In this document: piece by piece, positions 4,081 to 25,087 of the stretch
Numbering within the stretch: position 1 is the stretch's first letter
Layout of the letters: each line of letters starts with the position of its first letter
DNA from: a virus
Strand: one strand, 5' to 3'
IMG/VR virus record: IMGVR_UViG_3300020214_000112
Span: 1-25,211 of that record
DNA: 25,211 nt
Translations under genes and position numbers: made by a program
Notes under the pieces: model-generated
Database searches by the model: none
Told to the model about the DNA's origin: nothing
What the model saw: only the letters and a program-made list of their open reading frames with translations

Positions 4081-6003
4081 TTATTTTACAGCAGAATGAT
4101 ATAAAATAGCCGCAGAATATTCATCAAGTAAAAATTCATCAGCCTTATCAAGAACAGATTGCATAGGGTGAAGTTTTTCTATTTCATCGACATTACCTAT
4201 GCATTTTTGCACGTTTGAAACCCAATCTTCTCTTAAACTTGACGCGATAACTTTTTTACAAAGTGTTATCACGTTTGATTGCTGATCTGAATTTAAAGAC
4301 GCTACTCCAAATTTCTTTGCGGTAAAGTCTTCCGCAGCTTTCATAAAGGCATCAATTTCATAAACAGTTGTTTGAATATCTTTTCTTGAGGCTGTTGTCC
4401 CAATTGGTCTTCCAGCACCAGACTCTTTTGGTATCGCGGTTGGAGTCGGTGCTGTGTCTTGAATCATTGGAACCCCGCCTATAATTGGATTGTAATACCC
4501 TTTCTCCCTATCTGAAACAAACTTTTCTTGCGCGGGAGCAAGATCATTTGGATTTGGAAGCTTACCATTACTAATTGATTCAATGCCTTGTTCTGGAGTA
4601 AGAATGCCAATTTCCATTAAACGGCTAATAGTCCTCATGTACTGGGTTTCATCTTTTAAGTCAATCTCAGTAAATTTCGCCATAGGCCAAGTGCGAAACC
4701 CCAAATCTTTTGAAATGCGAATAATTTCTGGCTGAAGAACATCATTTAGAAAAGCATTTCTAGCTTCTTTCAAGCGCTCCATAAAAAAGCTAATTTTCGC
4801 GCTTTGACCGTTATATTTCTCATTACCAAGCATAACGTTCATCAAACCTTCCTTAATGTCTTCGTTTAAAACTTCATATTTTTCTTTACCGATAACTTTT
4901 TTTAGATCAGGAATTATGAAATCAGCCTTTGTTGTATAATCGGAAACAAGAACGCGACCAACGCTTTCGTTCATAAATAAGTTTTGCATAGCTGTCATGT
5001 TGGCGGGATTAATTCCACCCTTGTCTGGTTCTGCTCCCATCGTAATTAACAAAATTACGTTTTCCACAGTACGAGCAATAGCTTGATCGATGCGTTTTAA
5101 TTCGATTTTTGCGTTAATATCTTCAAGAACAGGATAAGAGAAAGGAACCGCAAATGGCTCATAATCTTGTTTTTTATAAAAAGAATAAAGTAAATATTTT
5201 GGGTCAAGTTTCATTTTCAAACCATCTCTGAAATACTGTTTACCTTTGATTTGTTTTTGAACCTCTGGATCAAATCCATTAAGAAGTTCGACATCAGTAT
5301 CATCTTTGGGATTTTTTAGACGTTCGAGTTCATATTCGGAAAGAATTTTTTCGTAAACCGCTTCCGCAAACGAACTAGAAATCTTCGCGACAATGTCGTA
5401 TGGATTAATTAAAATATAACGAAGAGGAACTTTGTTGTTTTTTATGCCGTTTTCACTTAAACCAGAAAGTAGTTTAAAATCCTCTGCATTAAATTTACCG
5501 TCGATTCTATAGAGAAAAATATTTCCACTACGATAATATTCGCGAAAATATTGATCTTTTAATTTCCAAAGCTTGATTTTATTAAACCATTTTTGGAAAA
5601 ACTCCCTGCTTCTTTCAGTCCCCCCTTCAAGATAAACATCGGTATTCGCGAATTCAGTAGCTATATCTATAGTGTTTCTGACTATCGCGACATTAGCATA
5701 TGCTTTTTGACAAAGCATAATTGCGTCTCTTATATCTACTCCATCTTTTGTATATTCATAAGGCAAAAGTCCTTGACTTAAAAGCGAATATCTACCAATA
5801 TTAACATCTCTTCCATTTCTCGGAACTTTTGTTTTTGTTGAAGACTGGTTGTCTTTCGTCCTTGCGTATGAAGCCTGAGATATTTCTTTGTAGAAAGACT
5901 CTCCCATAAGTTTCGGCTCATAAGAAGCTTGAGAAACTTGAACAGTCTCGACTTTATTAAATTTAGTCCAATAATCAGATTTTTTATTATATTGGCGTGC
6001 CAT
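4081..6003 (-). CDS. Portal protein
   Basis: The 640-residue product lies directly after the large terminase in transcription order and before the protease/scaffold, the standard portal position. The length fits a myovirus-type portal. Typical traits are visible: an N-terminal helical region leading to 'VAIVRNTIDIATEFANTDVY' (residues about 105-125), a wing-like alpha/beta section, a long central helical stretch (DINAKIELKRIDQAIARTVEN) of the kind that lines the portal channel, and 'MNVMLGNEKYNGQ' in the clip/crown part. It forms the dodecameric ring through which DNA is packaged and to which the terminase docks. No Shine-Dalgarno sequence is obvious before the ATG; a candidate AGTGTAA element lies 17 nt upstream. 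Confidence 0.85.
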   Translation of the reverse strand: MARQYNKKSDYWTKFNKVETVQVSQASYEPKLMGESFYKEISQASYARTKDNQSSTKTKVPRNGRDVNIGRYSLLSQGLLPYEYTKDGVDIRDAIMLCQKAYANVAIVRNTIDIATEFANTDVYLEGGTERSREFFQKWFNKIKLWKLKDQYFREYYRSGNIFLYRIDGKFNAEDFKLLSGLSENGIKNNKVPLRYILINPYDIVAKISSSFAEAVYEKILSEYELERLKNPKDDTDVELLNGFDPEVQKQIKGKQYFRDGLKMKLDPKYLLYSFYKKQDYEPFAVPFSYPVLEDINAKIELKRIDQAIARTVENVILLITMGAEPDKGGINPANMTAMQNLFMNESVGRVLVSDYTTKADFIIPDLKKVIGKEKYEVLNEDIKEGLMNVMLGNEKYNGQSAKISFFMERLKEARNAFLNDVLQPEIIRISKDLGFRTWPMAKFTEIDLKDETQYMRTISRLMEIGILTPEQGIESISNGKLPNPNDLAPAQEKFVSDREKGYYNPIIGGVPMIQDTAPTPTAIPKESGAGRPIGTTASRKDIQTTVYEIDAFMKAAEDFTAKKFGVASLNSDQQSNVITLCKKVIASSLREDWVSNVQKCIGNVDEIEKLHPMQSVLDKADEFLLDEYSAAILYHSAVK

Positions 6004-8851: not shown

Positions 8852-9905
8852 CGTCTAATGATATTCCTAATATACGAGCTTTCCATTCTACCATAGTCTC
8901 CATTTTTTTAGCTTCATCGATAACTAAAGACTTTTGCATTTCTGCAATTTTAATCATATTTGCTCGCTCTTCTTCGTCTTGAAAAAGTTGAACGATAGAA
9001 AGAATAGAGGCGTTTTCTTTTTGTTTGGAAGAAATTCTCTCGCGCCTGTCTCCTTGTAATTTTTTAATTAAGCTTTCTACTCGGCCTTCGCATTGATGAT
9101 ATTCACTGCTTTTGGCTTTTATAATTTCGGCCAAACGAATACTCATTTCATTCTGCTCTTGCGTCTCTTCAAACATTTTGTTAAGTTTGTCCAAGTGTCG
9201 AGAGATAGTTTCTAGATTGATAATCTCTTTGCAAACGTTCATATACAAATTAACTTCATCAGCAGTCAAATCAGGCTTGTCCCATGTCATGCGGATAAAT
9301 TCTTGCTCAAAAATATTCCTGTCATCTTCTGCGGTATAGCAATTTATAATCTTTTGAAATCTAGAATTCCCCAGATTAATAGAAAGTTTTTCCGCACACA
9401 TTTTGTGATGTCTGGTCAGTTTATCTTTATCTATTTTTTCTCCAGTTGCCTCATTAATTCGGTTAATAACTCTTTCTATTGATCGCGGCGTTTGGTATTT
9501 AACAAAAATGGCGTCGTCAGATACCCCATTGTTTTCGCAGCCAGAATTTCTAATATGAGCGGCAACAGTTCTATGCTCCAAACCCATTGTTGATATTGGC
9601 CTATCTGAATAAAGAAGTTCAGCAATTCTCAGGCTAGAAATGCCATTATTGGCTTGCTCTTCTATAAACTGTTCCTGTTCTGGGGTAAGGTGCAGATCTC
9701 CAACCTTTTCGTACTTTGACGTTTTATATTGTATTTTATTAGAAGCTAAAAGAGACCTTATCGCAATGCCTTGTTTTGTGCGCCCGTCTAGACTTTCGTC
9801 ATTAAAAAATTTGCGCGTAATACTATTTAAATCTGGAAACTCTTTTGATATTTCCAATATTTTCTTTTTGTCTTCTTCTGAAAAGCTTATTTTATTATTA
9901 ACCAC
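8841..9905 (-). CDS. Unknown DNA-associated protein, candidate small terminase
   Basis: I do not recognise this 354-residue protein. The N-terminal half has helix-turn-helix-like stretches (LTPEQEQFIEEQANNGISSL, then RTVAAHIRNSGC). The C-terminal third (residues about 225-340) is a Glu/Lys/Gln-rich helical region likely to form coiled coil. The start is a GTG with GAGGA about 9 nt upstream, inside the end of the sigma-like gene (8-nt overlap). DNA-binding N terminus, oligomer-forming C terminus and position two genes before the large terminase are consistent with a small terminase subunit, but it is long for that family and the call is only a positional inference. Confidence 0.45.
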   Translation of the reverse strand: MVNNKISFSEEDKKKILEISKEFPDLNSITRKFFNDESLDGRTKQGIAIRSLLASNKIQYKTSKYEKVGDLHLTPEQEQFIEEQANNGISSLRIAELLYSDRPISTMGLEHRTVAAHIRNSGCENNGVSDDAIFVKYQTPRSIERVINRINEATGEKIDKDKLTRHHKMCAEKLSINLGNSRFQKIINCYTAEDDRNIFEQEFIRMTWDKPDLTADEVNLYMNVCKEIINLETISRHLDKLNKMFEETQEQNEMSIRLAEIIKAKSSEYHQCEGRVESLIKKLQGDRRERISSKQKENASILSIVQLFQDEEERANMIKIAEMQKSLVIDEAKKMETMVEWKARILGISLDDAT

Positions 9906-10602
9906 CTAAAATATCCTCGTTTTGTAAAATTTTAATTGCGACTTGTTTAAATATTTTTTTAAGATTTTTGATCTGCTTATACCCAGCTTTCTTGCCCTTT
10001 TCATTTGTTTTGTATCCCATTTCTATCGCAACTTTTTCTTCATCTATCCCATCAATGTAAAGCCTAGAATAAACCTTATATTGTTTAGGCGCTAAACGAT
10101 GCTTCATTTCTTCGTGAAGTCTTGCCGCGCTACCTATAATATTAAAATTTAAATCTCTCATCTCTTGGATAGATTCAAAATGATTTTCTATAGAGACGGA
10201 AAGTTTAACATCATATGCGGCTTTCTTTGTTTTCTCCCATTTTCTATACAATTGGCATTCTGAACATTGTTTACCGCTTGGTGTGATAGAGCAAGCTGGG
10301 GGGTGATTACCCAAATTGAACTTACAAGATAAACATGGACGAACATAATTTGAATAATTATTTCGTAAAAGATTTTTAATTTGATTGACGGTGATGCGCG
10401 CAATCCAAGGCTCAAGTGGACGATCTTGTTTCCACATCTCCCATTTTTTGAAAATATGGAAACGAATTATTTGCGCGACATCTTCGTAATCCATCCAAGC
10501 AACGGCTTTAAGTTGCCAGATATACCTGTGCTTTTCTATGATTTTATCAACTACGTCTTGCTTATCTTCGTATTTAATCTTGTCTGACTTTTGTAGTTCC
10601 AT
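9898..10602 (-). CDS. Sigma-factor-like protein with zinc-binding insert
   Basis: The 234-residue product has a sigma region 2-like segment at about 38-80: MDYEDVAQIIRFHIF, then W...W, then PWIARITVNQIKNLLR, matching 'DL.Q......W.ria.N...d.lR'. A region 4-like helix-turn-helix lies at about 168-215 (LAPKQYKVYSRLYIDG...). Between them is a Cys cluster (C90, C93, C104, C113, C116) likely to hold zinc. This order is that of ECF or phage late sigma factors, which bring host RNA polymerase to phage promoters. Its place at the head of the packaging genes suggests control of late transcription. It overlaps the zinc-ribbon gene by 29 nt and the next gene by 8 nt. A plain DNA-binding protein remains possible. 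Confidence 0.68.
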   Translation of the reverse strand: MELQKSDKIKYEDKQDVVDKIIEKHRYIWQLKAVAWMDYEDVAQIIRFHIFKKWEMWKQDRPLEPWIARITVNQIKNLLRNNYSNYVRPCLSCKFNLGNHPPACSITPSGKQCSECQLYRKWEKTKKAAYDVKLSVSIENHFESIQEMRDLNFNIIGSAARLHEEMKHRLAPKQYKVYSRLYIDGIDEEKVAIEMGYKTNEKGKKAGYKQIKNLKKIFKQVAIKILQNEDILGG

Positions 10603-16653: not shown

Positions 16654-17358
16654 TCACTTGCTGGCCTCCAGTTGCACCACGAACCCCGTTGCGTCTTTCT
16701 TACCGTCGCCCTTGACCTTGAGGCCAACCACCACGTTGCGCTTGTCGAGAAAACGCAAGTCGCTTTCGTCACCGTTGACTACTTCGAACCCTTGCCACGT
16801 TGCGGGAAGAATGCCAGCGAACACCACCGCAACGTTACCACCTGCACGCAATACGTCCAGAGCTTGCGCCTCGTTGCTCTCGCTGCGCGAGAAAGTCAAA
16901 TGGTAGTTGCTGGGCATTGCACCTTTGACAAATTGCAAGGCGCGAATCGGGCTTTTGCTGTAGTCATAAAATTGCACAGTAGGGAACGCAGCGAACACGC
17001 CCAGCCGCTCCCACGCGATGTCAGATGTTCCATTGAGACGAACACAAGCACGCATTCCTTGCTTTTCGCAACTAGCAACGAAAGCGCGGATGTCTGCGAA
17101 AAGAAGAGCCTTGAACGTTGGCGTGTCATCGAAAAACAATTGCGTGCGACGAATACGCGCTTGCTGCACGTTGGACATCTTGCCACGCCCTGCCGAATAA
17201 AGGCACGCAAGCGTGCAACCTTTCGAACGATTACCGCAGACTTCGCCGCGCCCAGCTTGACGCGCTGGCGCAAGGTAGAGAATAGCCGTGAGCCATCCGA
17301 AAGCTTCGCCCTTGCTAGTCTTGGCATCCGAGCCAACCGAAAGAAGATTTAATTTCAT
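16654..17358 (-). CDS. GP88-family phage protein
   Basis: The 234-residue product has the hallmarks of the 'gene product 88' phage family: LYLAPARQAGRGEVC, then a Cys-rich CGNRSKGCTLACLYSAGRG at about 41-59, RIRRTQLFF, VRLNGTSDIAWE at about 105-116, QFYDYSK and YHLTFSRS. The family has no firmly established function. The regularly spaced strand-ending motifs and the Cys cluster suggest a barrel-like enzyme with a metal or Fe-S site, which is my inference. The start is supported by a standard-geometry promoter 7 nt before the ATG, so the mRNA is probably leaderless. It is divergent from the plus-strand genes at 17664 onward. Confidence 0.8.
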   Translation of the reverse strand: MKLNLLSVGSDAKTSKGEAFGWLTAILYLAPARQAGRGEVCGNRSKGCTLACLYSAGRGKMSNVQQARIRRTQLFFDDTPTFKALLFADIRAFVASCEKQGMRACVRLNGTSDIAWERLGVFAAFPTVQFYDYSKSPIRALQFVKGAMPSNYHLTFSRSESNEAQALDVLRAGGNVAVVFAGILPATWQGFEVVNGDESDLRFLDKRNVVVGLKVKGDGKKDATGFVVQLEASK

Positions 17359-17365
17359 GCGCGAG

Positions 17366-17393
17366 AGAGTAGGCCATGCGCGTACACTCGCAA
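17366..17393 (-). promoter_or_regulatory. Promoter TTGCGA-N16-TACTCT, 7 nt before ATG
   Basis: On the minus strand, TTGCGA at 17393-17388, 16 nt, TACTCT at 17371-17366, then 7 nt to the ATG at 17358. A run of T (A-tract on the other strand) lies directly upstream of the -35 box. Confidence 0.72.
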
Positions 17394-17495
17394 GAAAAAA
17401 AAATCAGTTGCAAACGCTAGGGAAAAAAGGCGGGAAGTTTGACACGCTGCGCCGAAAAGGCGAGAAAAAAAAATTGAAAAAAAAATAAAAAAAGA

Positions 17496-17541
17496 CTTGA
17501 CAGGAGGGGGTCCGGGCCGGGCCCGGTCAAATTTTGTCAAG
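17496..17541. repeat. GC hairpin repeat, symmetric copy (1 of 8)
   Basis: CTTGACA (17496-17502), 8 nt, the GC hairpin TCCGGGCCGGGCCCGGT (17511-17527), 7 nt, then TGTCAAG (17535-17541), the exact inverse of the left heptamer. This is the only copy with heptamers on both sides. It lies between divergent promoters (17393 leftward and 17629 rightward), where it cannot act as a terminator of either flanking gene. Confidence 0.85.
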
Positions 17542-17562
17542 CAAAAAAATGAAAAAAAATTG

Positions 17563-17604
17563 CGTGCCAACTGCACAAAAAAAATGACTTGGCACGAAAA
17601 TTGT
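17563..17604. promoter_or_regulatory. Operator-like inverted repeat CGTGCCAA-N18-TTGGCACG
   Basis: Perfect 8-bp arms at 17563-17570 and 17589-17596 are separated by 18 nt. The right arm continues as TTGGCACGAAAATTGT. A second site with the same core arms, the same 18-nt spacer and the same 16-nt right arm lies at 23117-23156, also upstream of a plus-strand gene. Protein binding is inferred. Confidence 0.6.
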
Positions 17605-17628
17605 CCGAAAAAATAATCAAAAAAAAAC

Positions 17629-17658
17629 TTGTGTGCGGCTCTTTTTTCTCCATACTCT
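17629..17658 (+). promoter_or_regulatory. Promoter-like TTGTGT-N18-TACTCT
   Basis: TTGTGT (17629-17634) and TACTCT (17653-17658) precede the ATG at 17664 by 5 nt. The spacer is 18 nt rather than the usual 16, so this is a looser match to the module. It follows a run of A residues. Confidence 0.45.
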
Positions 17659-17663
17659 GAGAC

Positions 17664-17852
17664 ATGAAAAATAACAATACGCTGAAAAAGGGTTACCTCT
17701 ACTTCCACACTAAGCTCGCTCGCGTGGAGCGCATCGTGACGGTCAATGGCAAGACGATTGAGCACCGTCACCACAACTTGTCCAGCGTGTCCAACGCGAA
17801 CAATTTCCGCCGCGCAACCCGTGAGGAAGTGATGGCCTACCTTGGCAAATAA
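17664..17852 (+). CDS. Small RVER-motif protein, paralogue A
   Basis: The 62-residue basic protein is related to the product at 22724-22948. Both share 'K.G.L[YW][FY].T...RVER[IV]', a mid-region His, and 'N.[FY][LR]RAT..EV..YL' at the C-terminal end (here RRATREEVMAYLGK). The family is unknown to me. The fold is likely a small beta-rich domain with a final helix. The gene has its own promoter and is followed after 25 nt by the promoter of the next gene. Confidence 0.62.
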   Translation: MKNNNTLKKGYLYFHTKLARVERIVTVNGKTIEHRHHNLSSVSNANNFRRATREEVMAYLGK

Positions 17853-18379: not shown

Positions 18380-18410
18380 TATAGTGGGGCTATATAAAGC
18401 CCCCGCCTTT

Positions 18411-18489
18411 ACTATATAGTGTCTATATAACGCTATATCAAACATTATATAGGGTGAACCGGGCCCGGCCCGGTCCATTTTTTGTCAAG
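18411..18489. repeat. TATATAG iterons plus GC hairpin repeat (2 of 8)
   Basis: Two tandem 12-nt units of the type TATATAGYGYTN begin at 18413, a further TATATAGGG follows, then hairpin ACCGGGCCCGGCCCGGT at 18458-18474, 8 nt containing a T-run, and TGTCAAG at 18483-18489. The upstream unit closely matches 23031-23060. The hairpin (6-bp stem ACCGGG/CCCGGT, 5-nt loop) plus T-run could terminate the gene at 18143. Confidence 0.85.
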
Positions 18490-18843: not shown

Positions 18844-18846
18844 TCG

Positions 18847-18869
18847 GGGGGCGCAAGCCCCCTTTTTTT
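18847..18869 (+). terminator. Intrinsic terminator with GCAA loop
   Basis: GGGGGC (18847-18852) pairs with GCCCCC (18857-18862) around a GCAA tetraloop, followed by TTTTTTT. It starts 3 nt after the stop codon of the gene at 18583. Confidence 0.92.
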
Positions 18870-18884
18870 ACAAATTTTTTACAA

Positions 18885-18917
18885 ACCGGGCCCGGCCCGG
18901 CCCATTTTTTTGTCAAG
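18885..18917. repeat. GC hairpin repeat (3 of 8)
   Basis: ACCGGGCCCGGCCCGGC at 18885-18901, 9 nt including a T-run, then TGTCAAG at 18911-18917. Since a strong terminator lies just upstream, this copy is redundant as a terminator. The preceding TTTTTACAAATTTTTTACA is repeated exactly before the copy at 19552. Confidence 0.85.
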
Positions 18918-19551: not shown

Positions 19552-19583
19552 ACCGGGCCGGGCCCGGTACGTTTTTTGTCAAA
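19552..19583. repeat. GC hairpin repeat (4 of 8)
   Basis: ACCGGGCCGGGCCCGGT at 19552-19568, 8 nt with a T-run, then TGTCAAA at 19577-19583. It starts 33 nt after the stop of the gene at 19228. The sequence just upstream repeats that before the copy at 18885. Confidence 0.83.
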
Positions 19584-19597
19584 AAGGGGCCAAATCA

Positions 19598-19685
19598 TTA
19601 TTTCGTATTTATGTATTTGCTGTTAAGCGCCGGGCCTGGCCCGGTCCCCTTGTCAAGCTTTTATTTCGTATTTTTTTATTTGCTG
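19598..19685. repeat. Tandem duplication including GC hairpin (5 of 8)
   Basis: TTATTTCGTATTT...TATTTGCTG occurs at 19598-19622 and again at 19661-19685, 63 nt apart. Between them lies hairpin copy 5, GCCGGGCCTGGCCCGGT (19629-19645), then 5 nt and TGTCAAG (19651-19657). Together with copy 4 this is a duplicated hairpin, heptamer and AT-rich tail unit. Confidence 0.8.
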
Positions 19686-19963: not shown

Positions 19964-20323
19964 ATGAAAATCAAAACAGAAGTCTACTTCAACCTACGCA
20001 AGCACCTGCTGTCGATTCGTGTGAATGGCAAGGTAGTTGCACACGCTCCTGCGATCACTCTGGAAAATCCCACGTTCCACGTTAGCGAATCGGGGCGTCA
20101 GCGGGTGCTGAAGAATCGGCGCAAGAATGTTCACGCATGGATTCGCGGCGATTGGGACAACTACCTCCGCACAGCAATCAGTCAAGTTATCCCCGAAAAT
20201 TCTGTCGAGGTGACTTACAACCCTTACAAATACTCAACTTTTGTGCTTGCAAAGGATGGGTCGCCAATTAAAAATGCCCGTTACGTTGCCATCTACGGCA
20301 AAAGAATCTTTGCTCAAACATGA
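19964..20323 (+). CDS. Conserved-type phage protein of unknown function
   Basis: The 119-residue basic product starts with YFNLRKHLLSIRVNGKVVAHA and contains GRQRVLKNRRKNVHAWIRG, a combination found in a group of uncharacterised phage proteins. It is probably a small beta-rich domain and may bind nucleic acid given its charge, which is inference. The start follows the previous stop by 3 nt; the end overlaps the next ATG by 4 nt (ATGA). Confidence 0.68.
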   Translation: MKIKTEVYFNLRKHLLSIRVNGKVVAHAPAITLENPTFHVSESGRQRVLKNRRKNVHAWIRGDWDNYLRTAISQVIPENSVEVTYNPYKYSTFVLAKDGSPIKNARYVAIYGKRIFAQT

Positions 20324-21240: not shown

Positions 21241-21307
21241 CGGTGCCTCGCTGTAACTTTTTGGTTGCGGCTTGGCACCGGGCCGGGCCCGGCACAGGCG
21301 TGTCAAG
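21241..21307. repeat. Inverted repeat and GC hairpin repeat (6 of 8)
   Basis: CGGTGCC at 21241-21247 is inverted as GGCACCG at 21274-21280. The latter overlaps hairpin ACCGGGCCGGGCCCGGC at 21277-21293, followed after 7 nt by TGTCAAG at 21301-21307. There is no T-run after this hairpin, so it is a poor intrinsic terminator. Confidence 0.78.
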
Positions 21308-22960: not shown

Positions 22961-23030
22961 TTCGGTGGAATAGTACGCAAGGAGAGCTTGCGGCACTGGG
23001 GGTTTTCGCCATTCATTAAACACCACCGAA
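22961..23030 (+). ncRNA. Candidate structured RNA or multi-stem element
   Basis: Outer arms TTCGGTGG (22961-22968) and CCACCGAA (23023-23030) pair perfectly and enclose an inner hairpin CGCAAG-GAGAG-CTTGCG (22976-22992). There is room for a third weak stem. The whole is 70 nt, in an otherwise gene-free gap between the genes at 22724 and 23253. It does not fit a tRNA. An RNA role is inference. Confidence 0.35.
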
Positions 23031-23093
23031 ATTATATAGTGTTTATATAGCGCTATATCAAACCGGGCCCGGCCCGGTCCCCCCCCTGTCAAG
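23031..23093. repeat. TATATAG iterons plus GC hairpin repeat (7 of 8)
   Basis: Two TATATAG-type 12-nt units, then ACCGGGCCCGGCCCGGT at 23062-23078, 8 C residues, and TGTCAAG at 23087-23093. The usual T-run is replaced by C, so this copy cannot be a normal intrinsic terminator, yet the hairpin-to-heptamer distance of 8 is kept. Confidence 0.85.
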
Positions 23094-23116
23094 ACTTTTC
23101 TCAAAAAAAGTTTTTA

Positions 23117-23156
23117 TGCCAAGCGCGAATTAAAATTCAGTTGGCACGAAAATTGT
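23117..23156. promoter_or_regulatory. Operator-like inverted repeat TGCCAA-N18-TTGGCA
   Basis: TGCCAA at 23117-23122 and TTGGCA at 23141-23146, 18 nt apart, with right arm TTGGCACGAAAATTGT identical to that at 17589-17604. The spacer contains GAATTAAAATTC. The remaining gap to the gene at 23253 has possible but imperfect promoter boxes, for example TTGAGT at 23190 with CACGCT 16 nt later. Confidence 0.6.
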
Positions 23157-23252
23157 TCGCCGCCGCATCAAAAAAACTTGAAAAAGTTCTTGAGTCTGGT
23201 GCAGTTTAGCCCACGCTTTCCCTTGTCAGTTTAACCTCAACCAAATAAAAAA

Positions 23253-24057: not shown

Positions 24058-24123
24058 ATGCTGCTCTCAGTCCTGTTTTTTTTAGTGCTGATAGCTATCT
24101 TACTGAAAAAAAAATTGCTATGA
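24058..24123 (+). CDS. Possible 21-residue membrane peptide
   Basis: ATG at 24058, immediately after the terminator T-run, opens 21 codons: Met, a 15-residue run almost wholly of Leu, Val, Phe, Ile and Ala (MLLSVLFFLVLIAIL), then LKKKLL. Its TGA overlaps the next ATG by 4 nt (ATGA). This looks like a single-span peptide with a basic cytoplasmic end, as in small phage membrane proteins or type I toxin-like peptides. T-rich DNA yields such residues by chance, and no promoter is seen. Confidence 0.38.
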   Translation: MLLSVLFFLVLIAILLKKKLL

Positions 24124-25028: not shown

Positions 25029-25087
25029 CCCCGCCTATATAGTGCTGTATATAGTGCTATATAGGGCGGGGCCGGGCCCGGCCCGGT
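25029..25087. repeat. TATATAG iterons plus GC hairpin repeat (8 of 8)
   Basis: CCCCGCCTATATAG at 25030-25043 is nearly inverted as CTATATAGGGCGGGG downstream (one bulged C), forming a long hairpin with TATATAGTGCT units inside. GCCGGGCCCGGCCCGGT follows at 25071-25087. No TGTCAAG follows this copy. Confidence 0.82.

Follow-up and report, generated by a model that had tools for sequence, protein, structure and literature searches.

The divergent gap and its repeat

The stretch of DNA analysed here, referred to as the window, is a 25,211-bp virus record from IMG/VR. A megablast search of the window against known phages gave no match, leaving it without a near relative among them. A leftward gene of the GP88 family and a rightward gene for a 62-aa product start on either side of one gap, and the rightward product is without a Pfam or PHROG match. 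The gap contains a GC-rich palindrome, CCGGGCCGGGCCCGG, bracketed by CTTGACA on the left and its exact inverse, TGTCAAG, on the right (Table 1); an Rfam search gave no match. An original prediction, made from the sequence alone, had described this inverse heptamer pair around a hairpin, and both the pair and its position between divergent promoters, concerning both directions, are as described. The spacers from heptamer to 15-bp core are 9 and 8 nt, or, with the flanking T's included, the 8 and 7 nt of the prediction.

The two-sided pattern occurs once in the window, where its symmetry causes it to be listed on both strands, and in none of 100 dinucleotide shuffles. Its description as the only two-sided copy holds for exact heptamers, but not if one mismatch is allowed, as the copy at 21278 shows. 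The half-form, the palindrome followed by TGTCAAG, is found at 17512, 18459, 18886, 19630, 21278 and 23063, and is likewise missing from the shuffles. The inverted repeat inside the rightward spacer recurs at 23104-23159 with 73% identity.

Table 1. Features of the divergent gap and of the other palindrome copies in the window.
Feature	Position	Strand	Basis
GP88-family gene, leftward	16654..17358	-	PF17338, E=2e-49
GP88 promoter-like TTGCGA-N16-TACTCT; -35 17393-17388, -10 17371-17366; 7 nt before ATG	17366..17393	-	
Proximal one-mismatch heptamer, TGTCAAA read leftward; 44 nt from GP88 -35	17438..17444	-	sequence
Heptamer, TGTCAAG read leftward; distal upstream site, GP88 side	17496..17502	-	sequence; invariant in 6 records, same gap
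GC palindrome CCGGGCC-G-GGCCCGG, common to both units	17512..17526	.	sequence; exact copies in 14/20 records; invariant arms
Heptamer TGTCAAG, upstream site of rightward gene at 17664; 87 nt to -35	17535..17541	+	
A-tract spacer of rightward unit	17542..17628	+	sequence; A-tract phasing across units
Inverted repeat CGTGCCAA / TTGGCACG inside rightward spacer	17563-17570 / 17589-17596		sequence
Rightward promoter-like TTGTGT-N18-TACTCT; -35 17629-17634, -10 17653-17658; 5 nt before ATG, leaderless-like	17629..17658	+	
Rightward 62-aa gene, ATG at 17664	17664..17852	+	homologues found in relatives
One-sided copy, tandem gap	18459..18489	+	pattern search
One-sided copy, tandem gap	18886..18917	+	pattern search
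Copy with TGTCAAA instead of exact heptamer	19553..19583	+	
One-sided copy, tandem gap common to 19553 copy	19630..19657	+	pattern search
One-sided copy; CTTGGCA (one mismatch) abuts left arm	21278..21307	+	pattern search
One-sided copy, tandem gap	23063..23093	+	pattern search
Palindrome without heptamer, then TTGGGGAATTTTCCCCA	25072..25086	.	

Sidedness of the copies and gene direction

A simple script based on codon usage served to call genes in the window and in 17 stretches from relatives, and the sides of 54 distinct palindrome copies were classed by the gene end that they face. The exact heptamer is present on 29 of the 46 sides facing a gene 5' end, compared to 1 of the 52 facing a 3' end (Fisher p=6e-12); tolerating one mismatch raises the counts to 34/46 and 2/52. 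Copies in tandem gaps are as a rule one-sided, with a single exception bearing a heptamer on each side (L095:1125 in record G004). Copies in convergent gaps are heptamer-free (6/6 distinct copies), and those in divergent gaps bear both heptamers in four cases out of five. The two-sided symmetry is thus a consequence of divergent gene orientation, as the heptamer sides track gene direction. This replaces the idea that the symmetric copy is the ancestral full form.

The 3'-facing sides often bear TATATAGCGCTATATA-like palindromes or TTGGGGAATTTTCCCCA in the place of the heptamer. The TATATAGCGCTATATA-like palindromes stand at gene 3' ends at 18390-18450, 23030-23062 and 25036-25063, a slot that TACGTAGAACTACGTA holds in one relative (L102 in G018).

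Conservation in relatives

Close relatives were collected through GP88 (PF17338). The arrangement of CTTGACA, palindrome and TGTCAAG is present in the gap upstream of GP88 in G001, G002 and G003; in G005 and G006, the two-sided pattern occupies a divergent gap one gene further out. Altogether, six records from four distinct lineages keep the heptamer pair in a divergent gap, and three different genes stand on its right. The original prediction had staked itself on the heptamers being kept wherever relatives share the gene pair. Relatives that have the palindrome do retain both heptamers, with that gene pair (G001 and G002, whose right-hand gene is a homologue of the 17664 gene) and also with others (G003, G005/G006). 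The homologue of the 17664 gene in G005/G006 sits elsewhere, behind another palindrome copy, with 88 nt from heptamer to -35 (87 in the window). In the alignment of the gap from six records, the two heptamers and the two arms of the palindrome do not vary, with flanks of 48-68% identity. Several other relatives have a GP88 upstream gap without the palindrome.

Exact copies of the palindrome were found in 14 of 20 records, and the backward-pattern control gave none. Among 84,980 species genomes, the heptamer-palindrome pattern returned only three lone matches, all bacterial, which look like chance occurrences in GC-rich genomes. The genes adjoining the palindrome differ across relatives.

The conservation bears on the reading of the two heptamers as one dyad operator, through which a single regulator or a looped dimer would co-control GP88 and the 17664 gene. 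The exact inversion of the heptamers and the retention of the pair in the gap speak for such an operator, but most copies have one heptamer only, on the gene-start side, the half-site separation is not constant in relatives, and the pair persists where the right-hand gene has been replaced, making a dyad operator improbable. Of the earlier suggestion of an operator controlling both directions, the involvement of both directions stands; the pair is better read as two opposed upstream sites with one common palindrome.

Three further observations concern the same region in relatives. Contigs L016, L021 and L022 stop 54-70 nt upstream of GP88, within the divergent gap; the assembly probably broke there in A-rich repeats, physical ends being conceivable as well. 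A second leftward heptamer with promoter-like sequence, without an obvious gene, occupies the interval from palindrome to GP88 in L093 (~1969-2076), L094 (~4560-4663) and L101 (~1561). In a more distant phage group (L034, L068), CTGTTAGA replaces the palindrome about 15 nt upstream of TGTCAAG.

The heptamer as an upstream element

Among orientation-specific 7-mers in the upstream regions of these phages' genes, TGTCAAG ranks first, occurring in sense in 36 of 117 distinct regions and in antisense in 13, with 0.97 expected. It is also seen ahead of genes that lack the palindrome, GP88 of the more distant records G018 and G019 among them; in GP88 relatives outside these groups, a search of the 300 nt preceding the gene yielded no exact heptamer. 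Conservation around it is limited to TGTCAAG itself, C at -2 (73%), M at +7 and W at +10 to +12.

Promoters were predicted with the regular expression TTGNNN-N16-18-[TC]ANNNT and end 4-9 nt before the ATG, a range imposed by the expression; this spacing suggests leaderless mRNAs. Promoter units were grouped by protein families, since clustering by DNA identity failed when A-rich sequence merged everything. Taking one value per family for 14 gene families in related phages, with -35s from the regular expression and genes from the simple script, the distances from heptamer to -35 fall at ~33, 42, 52, 64 and 95-97 nt and are phased at 10.5 bp (R=0.71, n=14, Monte Carlo p=2.5e-4). For homologous genes in different phages, the distances differ by approximately whole helical turns (52 vs 94; 42 vs 95-97; 42 vs 106). 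The A-tract centres are phased as well, at ~5, 16.5, 28 and 39 nt upstream of the -35 (R=0.59, n=93 runs). Phased A-tracts are a known cause of DNA curvature, and they alone could yield the phased distances without any protein at the heptamer. A wider scan, in which TTGACCGCAC had to lie 28-58 or 78-108 nt after TGTCAAG, produced 195 stretches, nearly all of them chance matches; outside the known records, the matches were essentially chance only. The scan thus provides no independent replication of the phasing.

The helical phase holds for the heptamers overall, but the symmetric copy departs from it: its own heptamers lie 87 and 102 nt from their -35s, ~3 bp off the common phase on both sides. 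The distal GP88-side heptamer may be a secondary site, because the nearer, in-phase heptamer with one mismatch lies close to the usual 42-nt position; exact proximal heptamers are found in G001, G003 and G015, 66 nt from the start codon.

Class-I upstream activator sites, such as those of CRP, are helically phased near -72, -82 and -93, and p4 of phage phi29 binds a curved region near -82 at promoter A3. The heptamer resembles these in its helically phased distances; the likeness is one of spacing alone, and no sequence similarity is claimed. In other relatives (upstream regions L098, L099 and L101), the slot between heptamer and promoter is filled by ATGTTCCACG arrays.

The palindrome: fold and role

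The palindrome forms a stable GC stem. Both strands of the symmetric copy fold with the heptamers paired, at -24.9 and -20.2 kcal/mol (z ~-3.5 and -3.2), and in the leftward reading the stem is followed by TCTTTTTTTATTTTT. This would suit one bidirectional intrinsic terminator, in which the heptamers pair in the RNA, extend the GC hairpin and stop entry from either side. However, both flanking genes start in the gap and no gene reads into it, the extended stem is impossible for one-sided copies, and at least 5 T in the 8 nt directly after the palindrome occur in only 3 of 52 copies. Some copies have a distinct terminator-like stem with a T-tract next to them, for example at 18846-18863, directly upstream of the 18886 copy. 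Such a terminator is unlikely.

The palindrome arms are nearly invariant, with few single variants, and the centre base is free (A25 T23 G12 C9). Compensatory changes were sought in the arms, where the near-invariance leaves no covariation by which to judge pairing. This invariance leans towards sequence-specific recognition or recent spread, and the palindrome is most likely a sequence-specific separator or recombination border and not a canonical terminator.

Relation to known systems

Closest in layout are the PeSLs (composite promoter-terminator stem-loops) of T4-type phages and the SAS/ESAS repeats of cluster K mycobacteriophages. PeSLs are reportedly (Comeau, Arbiol and Krisch, writing in 2014) dispersed intergenic cassettes of stem-loop and promoter before small genes, tied to gene shuffling. 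On that account, the window's lineage has the same combination of stem-loop and promoter in one repeated intergenic unit. It differs in that its stem is mostly without a U-tract and in the phased heptamer and A-tract spacer between stem and promoter, and the two groups of phages are unrelated. The SAS/ESAS repeats resemble those of the window in belonging to the non-structural half of the genome, being tied to gene starts and having an inverted repeat beside some of them; SAS sits 3-7 bp before the start codon (PMC3203893), whereas the heptamer sits mostly 66-165 nt upstream.

The stoperators of cluster A are many intergenic, asymmetric sites of fixed orientation that contain TGTCAAG (PMC3029335, PMC6550527, PMC9283540), a description that also fits the heptamers of the window's lineage. 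The heptamer could then be the 3' half of a cluster A repressor site of the L5 type, silencing elongation, as the consensus in cluster A and related phages ends in TGTCAAG or TCAAG (PMC3029335, PMC5559632, PMC13313380) and homologues of L5 gp82 and gp88 are encoded in the window. This reading is very doubtful and already largely refuted. TGTCAAG is mostly antisense to the genes of the right arm in the cluster A phages SweetiePie and Leogania, but sense in the window's lineage; the 13-14 bp consensus with its conserved, GGTGG-like 5' half is absent; and the heptamer distances here, unlike those of stoperators, are phased to the promoter. None of 20 records, which may be fragments, has a homologue of the cluster A repressor at E<=10, with positive controls found. 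The homologue of mycobacteriophage L5 gp82 (PF25735, E=1e-31) lies at 19964-20323 (+); in other respects, the phage is far from cluster A.

A MITE-like mobile element with CTTGACA terminal inverted repeats, its one-sided copies having decayed, would account for cores that are dispersed, lineage-specific and near-identical, with only the three lone matches elsewhere. It is a remote prospect, as the loss of one end would not track gene orientation, the heptamer occurs without the palindrome too, and no target-site duplication was seen by eye, the only way in which it was sought. That CTTGACA is the real -35 of an outward or antisense promoter, fitting the TTGACA consensus with an A/T-rich stretch upstream, is scarcely credible, since the GC palindrome occupies the -10 position and at most 2 mismatches to TATAAT at 15-19 nt are found in 7 of 53 sites vs 16 of 38 gene promoters.

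Proposed organization

We consider the feature to be, with some probability in favor, two promoter-upstream modules placed head-to-head across a common GC-rich palindrome. Many genes of the small-gene arm in this phage lineage are one-gene cassettes. In the direction of transcription, each opens with the GC palindrome; TGTCAAG follows after ~8 nt, then come an A/T-tract spacer and a sigma-70-like promoter, and the ATG lies 5-9 nt past the -10. The spacer carries phased A-tracts and at times an extra inverted-repeat box. In a tandem gap, the far side of the palindrome meets the 3' end of the preceding gene, without a heptamer; in a divergent gap, both sides meet 5' ends, and the heptamer is doubled and mirrored. 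TGTCAAG is a putative directional site for a phage or host regulator, which would act on RNA polymerase over curved DNA at ~-71, -81, -91, -102 and beyond, in the manner of a class-I activator, and the palindrome would serve as cassette border, separator or recombination junction.

On this view, the symmetric copy is an orientation-dependent doubling of a module that is specific to the lineage and sits upstream of promoters; a phased regulatory function of the module is plausible. A fuller version, more tentative, is that TGTCAAG is the site of an undescribed regulator, phage-encoded or recruited, and that single-gene leaderless units are controlled one by one via helically phased curved DNA, with the GC palindromes as borders and the whole mirrored in divergent gaps.

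With this rule, what looked like an odd symmetric repeat can be read as part of a grammar in a family of uncultured phages: the heptamer stands at the upstream edge of the promoter of a gene and indicates the direction in which that gene reads. If the phasing reflects a real activator, it would offer a simple genome-wide means to control many tiny genes separately, with cassettes that could be swapped. The product at 24120, previously proposed among the binders, is a poor candidate: it is present in only 3 of 13 relative records, which are fragments, though the heptamer is in most, and this argues against it.

Separately, a protein with ECF-like sigma factor region 2 (9898-10602, -) is found in 12 of 13 relative records, with no link to the heptamer shown. 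A recurrent box, GTGCCAA...TTGGCACGAnAATTG, lies between heptamer and promoter at 17563-17596, at 23104-23159 and in L012 and L014; its right half resembles a sigma-54 -24/-12 element, with GT replacing GC at -12.
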